Origin: Deltaproteobacteria bacterium
GTDB lineage: Bacteria > Bdellovibrionota > FAC87 > UBA2466
Length of the DNA: 34,835 nucleotides
Direction: 5' to 3'
Assembly (NCBI GenBank): GCA_900299195.1
Contig: OMIX01000112.1
Location: 1 to 34,835 of the forward strand
The notes beneath the pieces were generated by a model. The model was not told where the DNA came from. It saw only the letters and a list, made by a program, of their open reading frames with translations, and did not search any database. How positions within the stretch are numbered: position 1 is the first letter of the stretch; the number at the start of each line of letters is the position of its first letter. The position numbers were made by a program, and so were the translations under genes. Positions 2,697-9,409 of this stretch are shown here, piece after piece.

Positions 2697-3055
2697 AGGG
2701 CGCACCCTACTAGAAACGGTCAATCAGTGCAATGGTAGCCTTGTTCGTGCCTGGATCTCTGAAGAAAAAAGAGTTTACCCTCTCTAAACTCGGGAATCAG
2801 AAAGTTAGGTCTCTAACACTTGTTTGACAGTTTGACACTTTTATCTAGAGCCGAATCCCATTGATAGGTGCCCAAACTTGGATGAAAGATAGGTATTCTG
2901 ATTGAAGTCACCCCCCGAAAAGACCGTGGCATATTGATTGCTCATACAACCTATCGAGCGAAAGTCTCGTGTGTCGCTCACAGGAACAATACACGAGGTA
3001 AATTTTGAAGTTAGAAGTTGAAGTTGAAGTTCAAATGGCTAAAGGAGACGCTGAA
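2697..3055. promoter_or_regulatory. Divergent intergenic region with alternative leader hairpins
   Basis: This stretch separates the minus-strand pterin cluster from the plus-strand secreted-protein gene and encodes no convincing protein. Two TTGACA hexamers lie in tandem at 2824-2829 and 2832-2837, but neither has a good -10 box at 16-18 bp. Two overlapping inverted repeats lie nearer the plus-strand gene: GAGCGA (2956-2961) with TCGCTC (2974-2979), and CTCGTGT (2966-2972) with ACACGAG (2991-2997). The left arm of the second lies inside the loop of the first, so they cannot form together. AAGGAG (3042-3047) serves the ATG at 3056. Confidence 0.5.
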
Positions 3056-4963
3056 ATGAAAAGCTCGAAAGTAGATATCAAAGCAAAGTTGTCCGTATGG
3101 AGCGGAGTTGCCCTAATGGCACTAGCGCTATCCTCGGGTAAACCTATACTCGCTGCTAACGATATCAAATTGTGGCACAAAGCTGAGAAACCCGCTGATC
3201 AAACGCTGCTTCTTCATTTGGAAGAGAAATCGCTCAAGACCGAAGCCGACGAGTTGATTTTTGGAAAAGACTCAAAGAAACCGGATTTGGAAGCCTTTTC
3301 AAAAAAGTTTTCGAAAGAGCCAGTTCAGTTCTTAGAGGCTATCAAAGCCGCTTGGGTTAAAGTGGATAAAGAAGATACCACTGAGAATAAAGACAAAGTT
3401 AAAGAGTTTAAAGAGAAGCTGATTAAAGACTTGGAATCGATTGATTTCAAAGCATTTGGAAAAGTTCACAAGAAAGACACTTTGATTGCACTCGTTAAGC
3501 AACTTTTTGAGAAAAAGATTGATAGTGAGTCGGCGATTGCTGAGCTTTTAGAAAATCCGCTCATTCAATTAGCTTTAGAGATTACAGATAAAGCACCTCA
3601 AAAAGACGAAGCTAAAAAAGATGAAGCTAAAAAAGATGAAGACAACACTGTGAAAAAAGACACCACAGCTCCCCCTACTAAAGAGGAACCTAAAAAGGAA
3701 GAACCCAAACCCGAACCTCCTAAGCCTCCAGTAACTCCGCCCGTAGGTGAAGTGGGTGATGATGCAGCTGACAGATTAAAAGCCCAACAACTTTGTGACG
3801 CCATCAAAGGAAAAGAGGCTAATCGAGAAGCTGAACTTCAAAAATTAATGGATGCTGCTAACCAAATCCTAAACTCCAAAGCTTCGGAGTCTTCGATTGA
3901 CCCAGCAGCTCTACAAAACAAAAAGAATGAGAAAGGCTTGGAAGAGATATTGCCTGGGTTGTTAGCGAATGCCTTAGGACAAGATAAGCAGGAGGATATC
4001 ACTCCAGCTCCCAATAATACTCAACCGTTCACGCCTACTGCAAGGAACGATCGAAATAACGATCCTAGTGCCTTCAATCAACCGTTACCGCAGCAAGCGC
4101 AGAATCAAAATCCTCCGTTCTTCTTGCCTCCGAACACCAATCCTGGAGTTGCTACTCCTGTCAGATTGGATCTGCCTTCAAATTCCGGGCAGCAAGAGTT
4201 GAGAGACGCCCAAGCGTTATCGGCTCAGAACGAAGGTAGAACACCGATTTCAGCTCAGTTAAGTCCCTTAGCTACTCCGATGGACTTGATGTCAGCTAGA
4301 GTCAAAGTAAAAACTGATATTCAGAAAACTCAGATTACTCTGACTAACGCTAAAGATAGAGCCGCTAAGCTTGATGAGCAGTTGGAAGAACTTAAAGAAG
4401 GGGGGCGTGCCGCGCTATCTCCTGAAGTTAAGAAGCAACAGGCTCAATTACAAAGCGATGTGGATACAGCTAAGAGAAACTATGATCAGCAACGACAAAT
4501 GTTGATGATGGTAGCTCCAGAGCAAAGAAATGAATTACAGAGCATGTTGATGACTCTTCAACAGGACTTGAACTTCAAAGAGCAAAAACTCTCTCAGTTC
4601 AATGCTAATGTGGATGTAGCCATCGAAGATGGTAACAAACAGATTAAGAAGTTAGCTAAAGTTCGAGACATGTTAAACTCAGAAGTTAACAAGTTGAACT
4701 CTCAGTTAGCTGGAATGAAAGAAGATGAGCAAGCTATCGGTCAGCTCATCAATCAAAACCAGCAGCTGCAAATGGCACAGTTTCAACAAGGTGGAGCAGT
4801 TCAAAACGTCAATAACGGTACCAGACTTCAAGGGTTCAGCGGAAACGTAGGCGGACCTAGAACTCAGCTTCCTTCAAGATTCGGTGGAGTTCTAAATAAT
4901 AATCGAGCAGTGACTCCGAATAATGGAAACGCAGTTCGAGGGCCGTTGAATCGAAACAATTGA
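3056..4963 (+). CDS. Secreted Lys/Pro/Gln-rich coiled-coil protein of unknown function
   Basis: I do not recognise a family. The 635-residue product starts with an export signal: basic KSSKVDIKAKLS, hydrophobic VWSGVALMALALSS, then PILAAND with a plausible signal peptidase I site. Next come a mostly helical charged domain, a Lys/Asp/Glu/Pro-rich linker (KKDEA repeats, then PKPEPPKPP), a short helical segment with one Cys, and an Asn/Pro/Gln-rich stretch. Then a long predicted coiled coil rich in Gln, Lys and Leu (about residues 410-580), and an Asn/Gly-rich tail. I chose ATG 3056 because AAGGAG lies 8 nt upstream and the signal peptide begins there; a TTG at 3005 and ATG at 3035 are in frame but lack good sites. 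It is probably periplasmic or surface-exposed. A folded RNA and terminator follow. Confidence 0.75.
   Translation: MKSSKVDIKAKLSVWSGVALMALALSSGKPILAANDIKLWHKAEKPADQTLLLHLEEKSLKTEADELIFGKDSKKPDLEAFSKKFSKEPVQFLEAIKAAWVKVDKEDTTENKDKVKEFKEKLIKDLESIDFKAFGKVHKKDTLIALVKQLFEKKIDSESAIAELLENPLIQLALEITDKAPQKDEAKKDEAKKDEDNTVKKDTTAPPTKEEPKKEEPKPEPPKPPVTPPVGEVGDDAADRLKAQQLCDAIKGKEANREAELQKLMDAANQILNSKASESSIDPAALQNKKNEKGLEEILPGLLANALGQDKQEDITPAPNNTQPFTPTARNDRNNDPSAFNQPLPQQAQNQNPPFFLPPNTNPGVATPVRLDLPSNSGQQELRDAQALSAQNEGRTPISAQLSPLATPMDLMSARVKVKTDIQKTQITLTNAKDRAAKLDEQLEELKEGGRAALSPEVKKQQAQLQSDVDTAKRNYDQQRQMLMMVAPEQRNELQSMLMTLQQDLNFKEQKLSQFNANVDVAIEDGNKQIKKLAKVRDMLNSEVNKLNSQLAGMKEDEQAIGQLINQNQQLQMAQFQQGGAVQNVNNGTRLQGFSGNVGGPRTQLPSRFGGVLNNNRAVTPNNGNAVRGPLNRNN
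3602..3640 (+). repeat. In-frame KKDEA repeat
   Basis: Nearly identical 15-bp units, the first and last trimmed, encode KDEA-KKDEA-KKDE inside the secreted coiled-coil protein. They open its charged, proline-rich linker. Units this similar at the DNA level suggest recent slippage duplication, so copy number may vary between strains. Confidence 0.7.
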
Positions 4964-4969
4964 TAGAAA

Positions 4970-5126
4970 AAGCTTAAAGCAAGGTCCCCCAAAGGACTTG
5001 AGCTTAAAGGGCTAAGAGGAACTACTAAGTAGAGTTGAAGTGGTTGTAGAGTTGGGTTTTCACGGTAGCTGAAGTTCCCGCGAAGAGTTGAGAGTAGTGA
5101 GAACCAAAGTTCCTCTTAAAGCCTTT
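4970..5126 (+). ncRNA. Candidate structured RNA (independent sRNA or 3'-UTR element)
   Basis: Bases just after the secreted-protein stop codon fold strongly. A first hairpin pairs 4980-4987 with 4994-5000 (one bulged G, 6-nt loop), extended by AAGCT 4970-4974 with AGCTT 5001-5005. A long helix then pairs 5007-5023 with 5108-5126: 11 continuous pairs (5013-5023 with 5108-5118), a 2-nt AA bulge, and 6 more pairs with one G-U. Inside it, GGTTTTCAC (5055-5063) pairs with GTGAGAACC (5097-5105) through one G-U. The loop contains a second AGTTCC (5073-5078) that could compete for the same left arm. A terminator follows at 5137. It matches no RNA family I know (not 6S, tmRNA, RNase P, SRP RNA or the c-di-GMP riboswitch). 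I see no clear dedicated promoter. Confidence 0.5.
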
Positions 5127-5136
5127 AAAAAATAAA

Positions 5137-5168
5137 AAAAGCCTCTAGCAGTTAAGCTGGGGGCTTTT
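5137..5168 (+). terminator. Rho-independent terminator after the secreted-protein gene and structured RNA
   Basis: A 13-bp stem pairs AAAAGCCTCTAGC (5137-5149) with GCTGGGGGCTTTT (5156-5168) through two G-U pairs and a 6-nt loop. T-rich sequence follows on the plus strand, and an A-run on the left would also allow some function in reverse. Confidence 0.85.
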
Positions 5169-5298
5169 GATTTTTGGGTCATAACCACTTTTCGGTTTTT
5201 CTTGTTTTCTGGACCACTTCTAAGCTTTGCATAAGCAAACTAAAACAATCCCTACCCCTGTTTTAAAAAGTCGTTAAGAAACGATAGAGTCTTTTTAA

Positions 5299-5353: not shown

Positions 5354-5382
5354 TTGACCCTAATCTCCGCATTGGATATACT
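5354..5382 (+). promoter_or_regulatory. Sigma-70 promoter of the zinc-ribbon gene
   Basis: A -35 box TTGACC (5354-5359) and a -10 box TATACT (5377-5382) are separated by exactly 17 bp. Each box matches consensus at five of six bases. Transcription would begin near 5389, giving a leader of about 36 nt. Confidence 0.75.
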
Positions 5383-5424: not shown

Positions 5425-5802
5425 ATGAAGAAAAGAAAGAGCCATCGATTAGCTCCCCGATTTCTAGTGGAGGATAAGTATAGCCCCAGTACCTACCTTC
5501 GACTCTGCCACCGTTGTTTGTTTTTAAATGAGGGCTCAAAATACATTGAAAAATGCAGTCGATGTGAAAGCCAATTCGCTGAGTTTTCAAGTAGTGGAAA
5601 ATCCGACTATAAAAAGATGGATTTTGAACATGAGGAAGATCCGATTCATGAAGCTATCACCGATTTTGACACTGACCACATTTCATCCGAAGAAGGTTCG
5701 GTTTCTGTGGATTCGGAAGAACACGATGATGATTCTGATGAAGAAGAAAAAGAACAAAAGAAGAGGGCTTATCCCATTAGCGGTTTAAGTGTTCTTTGGT
5801 AG
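5425..5802 (+). CDS. Small acidic zinc-ribbon protein, unknown function
   Basis: The family is not recognised. The 125-residue protein starts basic (MKKRKSHR), then has two CxxC pairs, CHRC and CSRC, about 16 residues apart, forming a probable zinc ribbon. The second half is very acidic (runs of Asp and Glu around residues 65-108), then a short basic patch and a C-terminal PISGLSVLW. A zinc ribbon followed by an acidic tail would suit a protein- or nucleic-acid-binding adaptor, but that is inference. I chose ATG 5425, with AAGGTGG just upstream; an in-frame GTG at 5416 lies inside that ribosome site. It has its own promoter and converges on rtcB, with the stops 4 bp apart. Confidence 0.75.
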   Translation: MKKRKSHRLAPRFLVEDKYSPSTYLRLCHRCLFLNEGSKYIEKCSRCESQFAEFSSSGKSDYKKMDFEHEEDPIHEAITDFDTDHISSEEGSVSVDSEEHDDDSDEEEKEQKKRAYPISGLSVLW

Positions 5803-5806
5803 CTCA

Positions 5807-7273
5807 TTACCCCTTAATCACCCCGAGCGGCTTTAGCTTTGCGACAAAACTGGCAATGTGTGCGTGGCGAATGGATTCGACAACTTCTGTAATATCTTTG
5901 TAGGCTTCCGGCATTTCCTCAACGACCGTATCTCTTCCAGAAGCTTTGAGAAAAATTCCTCTGTCCTCCAGCTCTCGTTGGATGGCTCTCCCTTTAGCCC
6001 TTTTTTTAGCTTGAGTTCTTGAAAGCTCGCGACCGGCTCCGTGACAAGCACTTCCAAAAGACAATTCCATGGAATGGGGACTTCCTGCTAAGAGATAACT
6101 AAATCGACCCATATCTCCAGGGACAATCACAGGTTGTCCAGTGGTTTGGTATTTAGCGGGTAGGGAAGGGTGCCCGGGCGGATAGGCCCGAGTTGCCCCT
6201 TTTCGATGAACACAGACCCTTTGAGAATTTCGGTTGTTTTTGAAATGGAATTCCTCCCATTTCGCAATGTTATGGCAGATGTCATACAAAACTTCTGTTT
6301 TTAGTTCGGGAAAATGGTTTTTAAAAATACTCTTTACCCAGAAGCTGATGATTTGTCGGTTGGTGAATGCAAAATTGGCTGCAGCAGCCATCGCGCCTAA
6401 GTAGTTTTTTCCTTCTTGTGACTGAAGAGGAAGAGCCGCTAATTCCTTATCAACTAAATCAATTCCAAATTTGTCAGCACAATTTAATCCAAGATCGATG
6501 TACTCGCTGCATACTTGATATCCTAATCCTCTTGAACCCGTATGAATCATTATTAATACTTGTCCCTTTTCTAGTCCAAACGCTTGGGCAACCGTAGGAT
6601 CAAAAATAGTATCTACAGATTGGATCTCAAGAAAGTGATTGCCCGATCCTAAAGTTCCTATTTGGTTATGGCCTCGTTCTTTGGCCCGTTCGCTTACCTG
6701 ATTGGGATCGGCGTAAGAAAGGCATCCCTTTTCTTCGATGAATTCAAGCTCTGATCTTTCTCCAAATCCATTGTTAATGGCCCATGAAGCGCCCTCTACC
6801 AGTAAAGTATTTAGTTGCTCCAGAGAAAGTTGGAGATCTTTTCGGCGTGAGCCTACCCCACAAGGGATGATGTCAAAAAGTTCCCCGACCAGAGTTTTAG
6901 TGAGTTTGTATTTTACTAATTGTTCTTCTGTTAGGTTGGTTTTTAAGAGACGAACGCCACAATTAATATCGTAGCCCACACCCCCCGGGGAAACGACTCC
7001 TGTTTTTTCATGAAAAGCAGCAACTCCTCCAATAGGAAATCCATAACCCTGGTGAATATCCGGCATGGTCAAAACGGGATCGATCACCCCAGGTAAAGTT
7101 GTTACATGGGTGGCCTGTTCTAAACTTTTGTCATCTTTAATCCGTAGAATGAGTTCCTTGGAAGCTACAACGTGAACTCCAACTCTCATTTTCCCCTGAG
7201 GATCAATTCTCCAAATTCCGGGCAATATTTCATTGAGGGTGAACTTTTCAAGTTCAAGCTTTTCCAACTTCAT
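5807..7273 (-). CDS. rtcB: RNA-splicing ligase RtcB
   Basis: RtcB joins RNA ends bearing 2',3'-cyclic phosphate or 3'-phosphate to 5'-OH ends, using GTP and Mn(II), in RNA repair. All active-site elements are visible in the 488-residue protein: Asp102 and Cys105 in YDINCGVR, Asn212-His213 in GSGNHFLE, His244 in IHTGSRG, His334 in CHNIAKWEE and the guanylylated His411 in ACHGAGRELSR, plus HRKGATRAYPPG. Length matches the longer archaeal-type RtcB rather than the about 408-residue E. coli enzyme. It begins 22 nt after the archease stop. There is no clear Shine-Dalgarno before the ATG at 7273; a TATATT lies 8 nt upstream, but without a good -35. Archease, the RtcB cofactor, being its partner supports function. 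Confidence 0.97.
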   Translation of the reverse strand: MKLEKLELEKFTLNEILPGIWRIDPQGKMRVGVHVVASKELILRIKDDKSLEQATHVTTLPGVIDPVLTMPDIHQGYGFPIGGVAAFHEKTGVVSPGGVGYDINCGVRLLKTNLTEEQLVKYKLTKTLVGELFDIIPCGVGSRRKDLQLSLEQLNTLLVEGASWAINNGFGERSELEFIEEKGCLSYADPNQVSERAKERGHNQIGTLGSGNHFLEIQSVDTIFDPTVAQAFGLEKGQVLIMIHTGSRGLGYQVCSEYIDLGLNCADKFGIDLVDKELAALPLQSQEGKNYLGAMAAAANFAFTNRQIISFWVKSIFKNHFPELKTEVLYDICHNIAKWEEFHFKNNRNSQRVCVHRKGATRAYPPGHPSLPAKYQTTGQPVIVPGDMGRFSYLLAGSPHSMELSFGSACHGAGRELSRTQAKKRAKGRAIQRELEDRGIFLKASGRDTVVEEMPEAYKDITEVVESIRHAHIASFVAKLKPLGVIKG

Positions 7274-7295
7274 TGCGATTCAATATAGTGGACTC

Positions 7296-7733
7296 TTAGA
7301 GATCAAGAAAGACCTTTGCGTAGAAAACATGTTCGGGTTGGGATTTCATCCCGAGCTCAAGTTGATGATAAGTGACTGCTTTTATTTCTGAAACGTGGCC
7401 ATGTTTTATCGGATTATATTTTTCACCAAATAGCGAGGCGCTAATTTTCTTGCCGTCAAAATGGTTAAAGACGATTCTTTTGCTCAAGAATTTATGTTTT
7501 TCAAAAAGAAAAAGAATTTCGTTAAGCCATTTTACTAAGAGTTGCTCTTTATTTTCTGCTTCTACACTTAGAGTCATTTTCTCTTCATCAGAAATTTGGT
7601 CGAGCTTTACCATCAAGTCTGTTAAGGCTGAAGCCGAATCGATATATAGTCGCTGGAGAGAAGGCGCCTCTACAAAAAAACCGCTGTCAGATTTGTGTTC
7701 CAAAGATTGATAAGTCAGTTTCCGCTCGGGCAT
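7296..7733 (-). CDS. Archease, RtcB activator
   Basis: Archease speeds RtcB guanylylation and turnover. The protein has the family layout: an N-terminal metal-site segment EHKSDSGFFVEA, a central EQLLVKWLNEILFLFEK block and a C-terminal EIKAVTYHQL followed by KVFLDL with a terminal Asp. At 145 residues it has the usual archease length. I chose ATG 7733 (GTG 7736 is equally possible). A TTG at 7769 would add 12 residues, but that codon overlaps the -35 box of a good promoter, and there is no ribosome site. The -10 box ends only 6 nt from the ATG, implying a leaderless mRNA. The gene lies 22 bp before rtcB in a two-gene operon, downstream of a terminator that closes the sigma-54 activator gene. 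Confidence 0.88.
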   Translation of the reverse strand: MPERKLTYQSLEHKSDSGFFVEAPSLQRLYIDSASALTDLMVKLDQISDEEKMTLSVEAENKEQLLVKWLNEILFLFEKHKFLSKRIVFNHFDGKKISASLFGEKYNPIKHGHVSEIKAVTYHQLELGMKSQPEHVFYAKVFLDL

Positions 7734-7739
7734 CACAAC

Positions 7740-7769
7740 ATTATAAAAGCAATGGGGGAATGAATCCAA
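7740..7769 (-). promoter_or_regulatory. Promoter of the archease-rtcB operon (probably leaderless)
   Basis: On the minus strand TTGGAT (7769-7764) and a consensus TATAAT (7745-7740) are 18 bp apart. The -10 box ends 6 nt before the ATG at 7733, so the start point should fall at or beside the start codon. The -35 box touches the T-tract of the preceding terminator. There is no Shine-Dalgarno. A sigma-54 type -24/-12 element is not seen. Confidence 0.65.
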
Positions 7770-7828: not shown

Positions 7829-9409
7829 TTATAATTCGCCGGGTCGTTTGCCAGCAGCCATCAGCTTTCGCTTATCCAAATTGTATTTTTCAACTTTGTT
7901 GATGAGGCCCGCACGGCTGATTCCTAGCTCCTTAGCCAGACGAGATTTGTTCCATCCGGTACGTTTGAGTCCTTCGCGGATCATTTCTCGTTCTAGTTCC
8001 TCCAGAGCATCCCTTAACTTACCCTGAATTCGAACTCCTTGAACTTTATTGCGTTCACCGAATTCACGAATTCTTGCTGAGAGCATGTCGACAGTAATTT
8101 TGCCCTCTGCTCCAGCTAGTACAGTAACTCGCTCCATTTCATTTTCGAGTTCCCTGATGTTACCTGGCCAAGGGTAATCGAAGATTTTCTCGAGAGCTCT
8201 CTTAGTTAAAAGTTTAGGCTTGATCTGTTTTTCAGCAGCAGATTTAGCTAAGAAGTGCTCACAGAGAATGAGTATGTCCTCTTTGCGATCTCTTAAGGGC
8301 GGAACCGTGATGTTGATCACGTTGATCCGATAATATAAGTCTTCTCTGAAAGTTCCCTTTTCTACCATGTCTTTCAGATCTCGATTGGTTGCCGCAAGAA
8401 TTCTTACGTCAACTTTGCGAGGTTCTGTTGCTCCTACCGGTAGAAACGTACCTTCTTGGATGACTCGGAGCAATTTCACCTGCATGGTGGGTGAAGTATC
8501 TCCGATTTCATCTAGGAAGAAGGTTCCTCCGTCAGCGGTTTCAAAGAGACCCTTCTTGTCTTTGACGGCTCCCGTGAATGACCCTTTCACATGTCCGAAC
8601 AATTCTGAGTCTAGAAGGTTATCGTTGAAAGCTGAGCAGTTTTGGGTAACGAATATTTTGTCTTTCCTTGGTGAATTGTAATGAATGGCTTTGGCGATGA
8701 GCTCTTTACCAGTTCCGTTTTCCCCTTGAATCAGAACGGTACTTTCACTGTTTTTGATTTTATCTAAAAGCCCATAAACATCTTGCATGGGTTTCGACTT
8801 ACCAATCATGTTGTCGTACTTGTATCGAACCCCGAGTTCCTTGTTCAACTCCTGAATTCGGTCATCTCGCATGCTGATTTCTTTATGTAGAGTACTGATT
8901 TCTTGAGAAACCAAATCAGACAACTCAGAGAAGTACGGAAGCTCATCTTTACCTAAGCAGCGGACTTTCGAGACCGCAAGATCAATTTCTTGATGAGGTA
9001 AATTAAAGTGAGCCATGGCTTTGGATAATTCTTTCTTCTGTCCGTCGCTGACTCCATCTGGAAAGTGGCCCAAGCAAACCACCGCACCCATGAACTCGTT
9101 GTCGATCACAATGGGGAAAGCAGAACCCTGGAAGTTGGGAAGAAACTCTTTGATGGCCCCTTTCTCCTGGGTCTTTTTGAGTTCATTGGTGGTATTTCGT
9201 ATAAAATCAGCAAGAGCATCATACCCCTCGTCTCTTTGGAGAATGAGATTCATGACTTTGTTGGCATGCTCTCGTTTTCCGCCTTTCTCAATAATTTTGA
9301 GGTTGCCTCGGTCATCAGCAAAATAGACATCGATGCTAAACCATTTGGCAATCACCTCTTTAAGTTTTCTAATCACGTGTATATGTTCGAATTCATCCCA
9401 ATTAATCAT
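7829..9409 (-). CDS. Sigma-54-dependent transcriptional activator
   Basis: The 526-residue enhancer-binding protein has three parts. Residues 1-165 form a sensor region that looks GAF- or PocR-like (SIDVYFADDRGNL, GSAFPIVIDNEFMGAVVCLG); I cannot name the ligand, and there is no receiver Asp pattern. A coiled linker (about 166-195) leads to the AAA+ domain: Walker A GENGTGKE (229-236), sigma-54-contact loop GSFTGA (276-281, Ser replacing the usual Ala), Walker B GGTFFLDE and arginine-finger region FREDLYYRIN. A Fis-type helix-turn-helix follows (about 478-512, LAKELGISRAGLINKVEKY). A good ribosome site (GGGAGG) precedes ATG 9409. It lies directly upstream of archease-rtcB on the same strand but is separated by a terminator. 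It is not an obvious RtcR, whose sensor is a CARF-type domain. Confidence 0.92.
   Translation of the reverse strand: MINWDEFEHIHVIRKLKEVIAKWFSIDVYFADDRGNLKIIEKGGKREHANKVMNLILQRDEGYDALADFIRNTTNELKKTQEKGAIKEFLPNFQGSAFPIVIDNEFMGAVVCLGHFPDGVSDGQKKELSKAMAHFNLPHQEIDLAVSKVRCLGKDELPYFSELSDLVSQEISTLHKEISMRDDRIQELNKELGVRYKYDNMIGKSKPMQDVYGLLDKIKNSESTVLIQGENGTGKELIAKAIHYNSPRKDKIFVTQNCSAFNDNLLDSELFGHVKGSFTGAVKDKKGLFETADGGTFFLDEIGDTSPTMQVKLLRVIQEGTFLPVGATEPRKVDVRILAATNRDLKDMVEKGTFREDLYYRINVINITVPPLRDRKEDILILCEHFLAKSAAEKQIKPKLLTKRALEKIFDYPWPGNIRELENEMERVTVLAGAEGKITVDMLSARIREFGERNKVQGVRIQGKLRDALEELEREMIREGLKRTGWNKSRLAKELGISRAGLINKVEKYNLDKRKLMAAGKRPGEL

Follow-up and report, generated by a model that had tools for sequence, protein, structure and literature searches.

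Positions 4970-5126 of the window, a stretch of 34,835 bases on a single contig of an incomplete genome, carry a member of a genuine structured RNA family that is as yet undescribed. It occurs in one Bdellovibrionales family and is a variant of the 3'-UTR regulatory RNA. For this locus, sequence comparison establishes a conserved structured 3' UTR (4970-5126), a sigma-54-type start of the message, and arrays of a short motif, AG[U/C]DG (AGYDG), in the loops of the RNA as well as near or across the predicted ribosome-binding site.

Fold of the RNA

An earlier note on this DNA had described a 5' hairpin, a closing helix, an inner helix, the hexamer AGTTCC and a terminator, and the coordinates of every one were confirmed on re-inspection and folding. 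The elements of the RNA are as follows.

4970-5005, + strand: P1, the 5' hairpin, from minimum free energy (MFE) folds; present at the same position in 5/5 genera, with a sequence that differs per genus
5007-5023, + strand: 5' arm of P2, the closing helix, paired with 5108-5126; covariation between genera
5024-5054, + strand: J1, a C-poor single strand with the array AGUAG-AGUUG-A-AGUGG..AGUUG; enriched in AGYDG at 5-6 nt spacing
5055-5063, + strand: 5' arm of P3, the inner helix, paired with 5097-5105; compensatory G-C to A-U changes even inside genus g1
5064-5096, + strand: L3, a large C-poor loop with more AGYDG copies; holds the non-conserved AGTTCC (5073-5078)
5097-5105, + strand: 3' arm of P3; compensatory changes within and across genera
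5108-5126, + strand: 3' arm of P2, with an AA bulge at 5118-5119; covariation between genera
5137-5168, + strand: intrinsic terminator of 13 pairs, from a terminator scan

P2 comprises 17 pairs, including a G5009-U5124 wobble. The MFE of positions 4960-5175 (216 nt) is -68.5 kcal/mol (z = -3.6), and none of 200 dinucleotide shuffles was as low. When the terminator was left out, the energy z-score of the core was -2.8 in the window genome and -0.3 to -3.2 in its relatives. Since these values are modest in several homologues, energy was not taken as proof of the fold. A terminator hairpin followed by a T-run lies 3' of the RNA in genera g1 and g6, whereas g2, g5 and g7 show no obvious one.

A switch in which the AGTTCC of L3 swaps for the outer right arm had also been suggested. 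The swap is geometrically possible, but the hexamer is missing in G002, in G005 and in all genera other than g1, and switching was rejected for this lack of conservation.

Homologues and covariation

The decisive support for the predicted fold is comparative, and comes from homologues and covariation. The relatives that share the locus are metagenome-assembled genomes (MAGs) of Bdellovibrionales/Bdellovibrionaceae, several of them from lakes such as Baikal and Lanier. By blastn, the element was found in 6/6 genomes of genus g1 and in 0/33 of the other relatives searched. A covariance model built from the six genomes of this single genus (R1) matched G009 (E 4.8e-5 per genome) and G010 (E 0.0015) without the use of synteny. 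Both matches fall at the syntenic site, between the stop codon of a Q/N/P-rich secreted coiled-coil gene, which they follow closely, and a small CxHxC...CxxC ORF. An enlarged model (R2) matched the held-out G013 (E 1.2e-11), G006 within the syntenic intergenic region (E 2e-4) and, weakly, G011 (12 bits), where an independent fold gave the same layout. Altogether the element is present in 5/7 genera of one Bdellovibrionales family, each time directly 3' of the secreted-protein stop codon; the homologous intergenic regions sought after the earlier note were thus found in all of g1 and in four more genera. The G007 contig stops short of the site, and G008 does not preserve the neighbourhood. A scan of 291 genomes of the phylum with R2 gave matches confined to this family. 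In G014, from the sister family, the RNA was not found in the corresponding intergenic region. Two strong hairpins stand in that region (L044 1207-1440) where the RNA would be.

Because MAFFT misaligned P2 between genera, a covariance-model alignment was used. It contains 12 sequences from five genera, in which 96.4% of the cells are paired, a value that none of 500 shuffles attained and that falls to 55% when the partner is slid by one column. Both sides changed at 22/32 pairs, a number that none of 500 shuffles equalled, and the cells changed on both sides amount to 58, against 15.5 in shuffles (0/500 reach it). Such an alignment is fitted to the structure; as a control, individual sequences were folded without constraint, and the same arrangement of P1, P2, J1 and P3-L3 emerged. 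Compensatory changes, which had been proposed as a check on the two helices, are present in both across genera. Within g1 alone, 14 of the 17 P2 pairs are invariant, and with helix arms so nearly constant this genus alone could not have established the fold. The helix changes are often from G-C to G-U or from A-U to G-U, which favours RNA of the + strand as the functional strand. We are almost certain that the RNA family exists with this fold.

Probable parent mRNA

The features of the message upstream of the RNA are listed below.

2927-2941, + strand: sigma-54 type promoter TGGCATATTGATTGC, the only strict match within the window
3007-3032, + strand: AGU array of the 5' UTR, GAAGTTAGAAGTTGAAGTTGAAGTTC, about 10 nt before the Shine-Dalgarno sequence AAGGAG (3042-3047)
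3056-4963, + strand: gene of a secreted Q/N/P-rich coiled-coil protein, preceded by that Shine-Dalgarno sequence; g6 homologues align from MKS

A sigma-54-type promoter (TGGCAY-N5-TTGC) precedes the secreted-protein gene in 5/5 genera and in G014 of the sister family; the counterparts in the other genera and the sister family are TGGCACACCCCTTGC, TGGCACACGCCTTGC, TGGCACAGAGCTTGC, TGGCATAGTGCTTGC and TGGCACAGCACTTGC. A sigma-54 activator gene lies a few kb downstream (7829-9409), and is near the site in most other genomes. Judging from the sequence, the true start of the protein is probably ATG 3056, which opens the signal peptide MKSSKVDIKAKLSVWSGVALMALALSS, rather than the mechanical ORF start TTG 3005. 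The protein has no Pfam or NCBIfam match, and no relatives were found in IMG/VR. The gene is fast-evolving: between G009 and the window, BLASTP gives an E value of 0.67 and the alignment is lost, so that conservation is stronger in the RNA than in the adjoining protein. A second secreted-protein fragment, L017 (G002:C22:2-769), is 55% identical, with one TAA in the match and a contig edge; it is a paralogue or the contig end of another copy.

The RNA begins about 6-40 nt past the secreted-protein stop codon in the five genera, and 7 nt past the stop at 4963 in the window. On its other side lies a small, acidic zinc-ribbon-like ORF (5425-5802; CxHxC...CxxC, ending GLxVxW), which is conserved in most genera of the family and in the sister family and has no Pfam or NCBIfam match. 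In G003 this ORF is inverted and convergent with the RNA, although a MAG assembly error is possible there; in G011 it is gone from the site, where an archease gene stands instead, and the RNA is retained. In the window, a sigma-70-like promoter candidate (5354-5382) lies between the terminator and the ORF. The adjacency to the stop codon, the inversion in G003, the loss in G011, and the intervening terminator and sigma-70-like site all indicate that the RNA is, very probably, the 3' UTR of the sigma-54-driven secreted-protein mRNA. Of the two origins proposed earlier, derivation from the 3' UTR of the secreted-protein gene fits, as the RNA stays with that gene in G003 and G011. An independent sRNA gene is disfavoured: no sigma-70-like promoter was found ahead of the RNA, in a scan that knows only the sigma-70 consensus.

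RtcB and archease genes (5807-7769) adjoin the locus and are variably lost among the relatives. Archease stands alone in G010 and G014, and neither gene is at the site in G001, G002 and G009. The RNA is retained in G001, G002, G009 and G010 despite these losses.

Repeated motif in the loops

J1 and L3 are poor in C (3-16%) and carry AGYDG repeats. In the loops, AGTGG occurs 16 times (1.7 expected) and AGTTG 13 times (1.0 expected); of the 51 gaps between successive AGY triplets, 31 measure 5 or 6 nt, where about 1.1 would be expected, and G fills the fifth position of 53 of 65 copies. The AGYDG chain statistic reaches z = 17.6 relative to shuffles, which ignore the relatedness of the sequences. 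The motif was defined on g1 and g6 and was also first scored there, while three genera were held out. The held-out sequences contain 6 copies in G009 (0.7 expected), 6 in G006 (0.75 expected) and 3 in G011 (0.6 expected), with p < 0.0002, 0.0002 and 0.018, respectively.

Array at the ribosome-binding site

Arrays of the same kind stand at the same place in the 5' UTR in G001, G003, G004, g2, g6, g7 and G014. Thus the twin 5' array occurs in four of the five RNA-bearing genera (g1, g2, g6 and g7) and in the sister family. The g2 array reads AGCAGAAGTTGAAGTGG, and in g6 and g7 the motif is also found between the Shine-Dalgarno sequence and the start codon (AAGGAGAAGCGGAAAATG; AAAGGAGTAGCGGAAATG). 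In single genomes, enrichment at the 5' end ranges from p = 0.10 in the window (2 strict AGYDG) and p = 0.11 in G013 to p < 0.0005 in G003, which has five AGYDG copies. At least three AGYDG copies lie upstream of 2/586 other ORFs of the window genome. Chains of at least four AGT at 5-7 nt spacing number five on both strands of 900 kb, and one of them is this 5' array. When 900 kb of the window genome, roughly one third, were scanned for further AGYDG arrays that might mark a regulon, nothing convincing emerged.

The array is in frame from TTG 3005 (EVEVEV) and might be coding if translation begins there. The MKSSK start of the signal peptide, the well-placed Shine-Dalgarno sequence and the fact that in g6 the motif lies in another reading frame speak for a location in the 5' UTR.

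The two ends of the message are not strictly coupled. G009 has a short 5' UTR with a single copy and almost no 5' array, though the 3' RNA is present; G014 shows the reverse. The array in G014 without the 3' RNA suggests that the 5' element may have come first, the 3' element having been added in the RNA-bearing family.

Further upstream in the 5' UTR (2956-2997), a possible H-type pseudoknot is predicted, with pairings GAGCGA (2956-2961)/TCGCTC (2974-2979) and loop CTCGTGT (2966-2972)/ACACGAG (2991-2997). All four g1 genomes that include the 5' end share it.

Known RNA families and candidate protein partners

The RNA had earlier been matched to no known family, and this stands: Rfam 15 gave no match in the window at the gathering cut-off, and under lax thresholds the best was the trpB motif (23.2 bits for a cut-off of 59), mostly over the terminator. 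6S RNA (RF00013) was rejected, as the only 6S match of the genome lies elsewhere (G000:C64, 99.5 bits). The neighbouring RtcB and archease genes prompted a comparison with Y RNA/YrlA, which was also rejected: Ro60/Rsr (TROVE, PF05731) was not found in the genome, and the link is further weakened by the missing RtcB-archease pair beside the RNA in several relatives.

OppZ and CarZ are autoregulatory sRNAs derived from 3' UTRs (PMC7398697; reviewed in PMC9438474). The present RNA resembles them by its position directly after the stop codon, by its terminator (in g1 and g6) and by an apparent feedback on its own gene. However, OppZ and CarZ base-pair with mRNA and do so, as far as is known, together with Hfq, whereas Hfq (PF17209) was not found in the 97% complete window genome by a search that detected it in control genomes. 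Being of like sequence on the same strand, the 3' and 5' arrays are unable to base-pair with one another, although a single factor could bind both.

The known protein with the most similar-looking sites is TRAP, whose sites consist of 9-11 NAG repeats with short spacers (PMC4347634). As in TRAP sites, NAG triplets recur here at a 5-6 nt register in single-stranded RNA, with one array at the ribosome-binding site. Unlike in TRAP sites, the letters that follow AG are constrained (U/C, D, G) and the copies are split over two helix-held loops. Scored for a TRAP-type (G/U)AG register of 5-6 nt, KAG chains in the loops reached z = 4.4, against 17.6 for AGYDG, and TRAP itself (PF02081) was above cut-off in 0/59 genomes (the window genome and relatives).

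Within the same broad lineage, the attack-phase sRNAs and merRNA of Bdellovibrio bacteriovorus are also structured non-coding RNAs; merRNA contains a c-di-GMP riboswitch, and no homologues of these RNAs were reported outside B. bacteriovorus (PMC3627812). In contrast to merRNA, the present RNA has no c-di-GMP riboswitch by Rfam, and it differs from the B. bacteriovorus RNAs in that R2 matches no genome of the phylum beyond its own family.

Proposed regulation and alternative explanations

The arrays at the two ends suggest the following mechanism. A putative RNA-binding factor, most likely a multimeric protein that reads the repeats in register, would bind the 5' array and control translation of the secreted protein. 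P2 and P3 would keep the 3' copies, about six in number, single-stranded and accessible. The 3' element, either attached or possibly released from the 3' UTR as an sRNA of about 160-200 nt, would titrate the factor or bridge the ends of the mRNA. The circuit would then be autoregulatory, the message carrying its own decoy. Regulation of the secreted-protein mRNA through the same motif at its two ends is, on the strength of these sequence patterns, a reading to which we give slightly less than an even chance. That the arrays, in the same sense at both mRNA ends, are read by a new AG[U/C]DG-repeat-specific regulator outside Hfq, CsrA and TRAP is a more tentative suggestion, which may well prove wrong.

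Other explanations were weighed against this one. The RNA might be a passive 3'-end element, in which P1/P2 and the terminator end the sigma-54 mRNA and protect it as an exonuclease barrier while the loops have no specific partner. The stop-codon adjacency in 5/5 genera and the strong stem with its terminator agree with this, but a plain stabiliser needs no big internal loop with a 5-6 nt motif register across genera, and a twin array at the ribosome-binding site would be superfluous; we consider a passive role unlikely. A trans-acting, base-pairing type II 3'-UTR sRNA is about as unlikely. Its loop seeds would pair with CNACU-type mRNA stretches, or it would act as a sponge for an antisense RNA able to pair with the 5' array as well, a variant of the same low probability. 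In the window, the RNA does lie in the 3' UTR and shares the terminator of the mRNA, and such a location with an intrinsic terminator is typical of the class (PMC9438474, PMC7398697). Against base pairing stand the failure to find Hfq in the genome, the lack of an outstanding complementary array on either strand in 900 kb of it, and the nature of AGYDG, which is rich in G and occurs in repeats instead of as one seed.

Three further possibilities are less probable still. Type I 3'-UTR sRNAs with their own promoter within the end of the ORF exist; no promoter-like site was seen here by the scan for the sigma-70 consensus, and we regard this origin as very improbable. A decoy for CsrA, of the CsrB/RsmZ type, would likewise show many copies of a short motif in its loops. 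CsrA is encoded in the window genome, and GGA is present in the loops of g2, g5, g6 and g7. However, GGA is absent from J1 and L3 of all six g1 genomes, the window's own included, and GGA chains are not above shuffles (z = -0.5); the motif is AGYDG instead of GGA in hairpin loops, and the RNA is a 3' UTR instead of a separate gene. A CsrA decoy is thus highly improbable. Finally, because the RNA is situated between two genes, it could be read as a cis leader or riboswitch of the downstream zinc-ribbon ORF. The terminator and the sigma-70-like candidate separate the RNA from that ORF, and the inversion of the ORF in G003 and its absence from the site in G011, where the RNA persists, largely refute such a leader, which was rejected as having next to no probability.

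Significance

The AGYDG repeats of the loops, the matching array near the start of the message and its sigma-54 promoter are new with respect to the earlier note. The RNA constitutes a new structured family among uncultured bacteria related to predators, and its covariance model recognises members in several genera. That one mRNA carries similar repeats both in its 3'-UTR loops and at its ribosome-binding site leads to a concrete, testable hypothesis. Should a protein read this motif, it would count as a new RNA-binding regulator that recognises repeats, and the locus would be a small natural example of an mRNA with a built-in decoy. The RNA also offers a handle on the control of a rapidly evolving secreted protein of the Bdellovibrionales.
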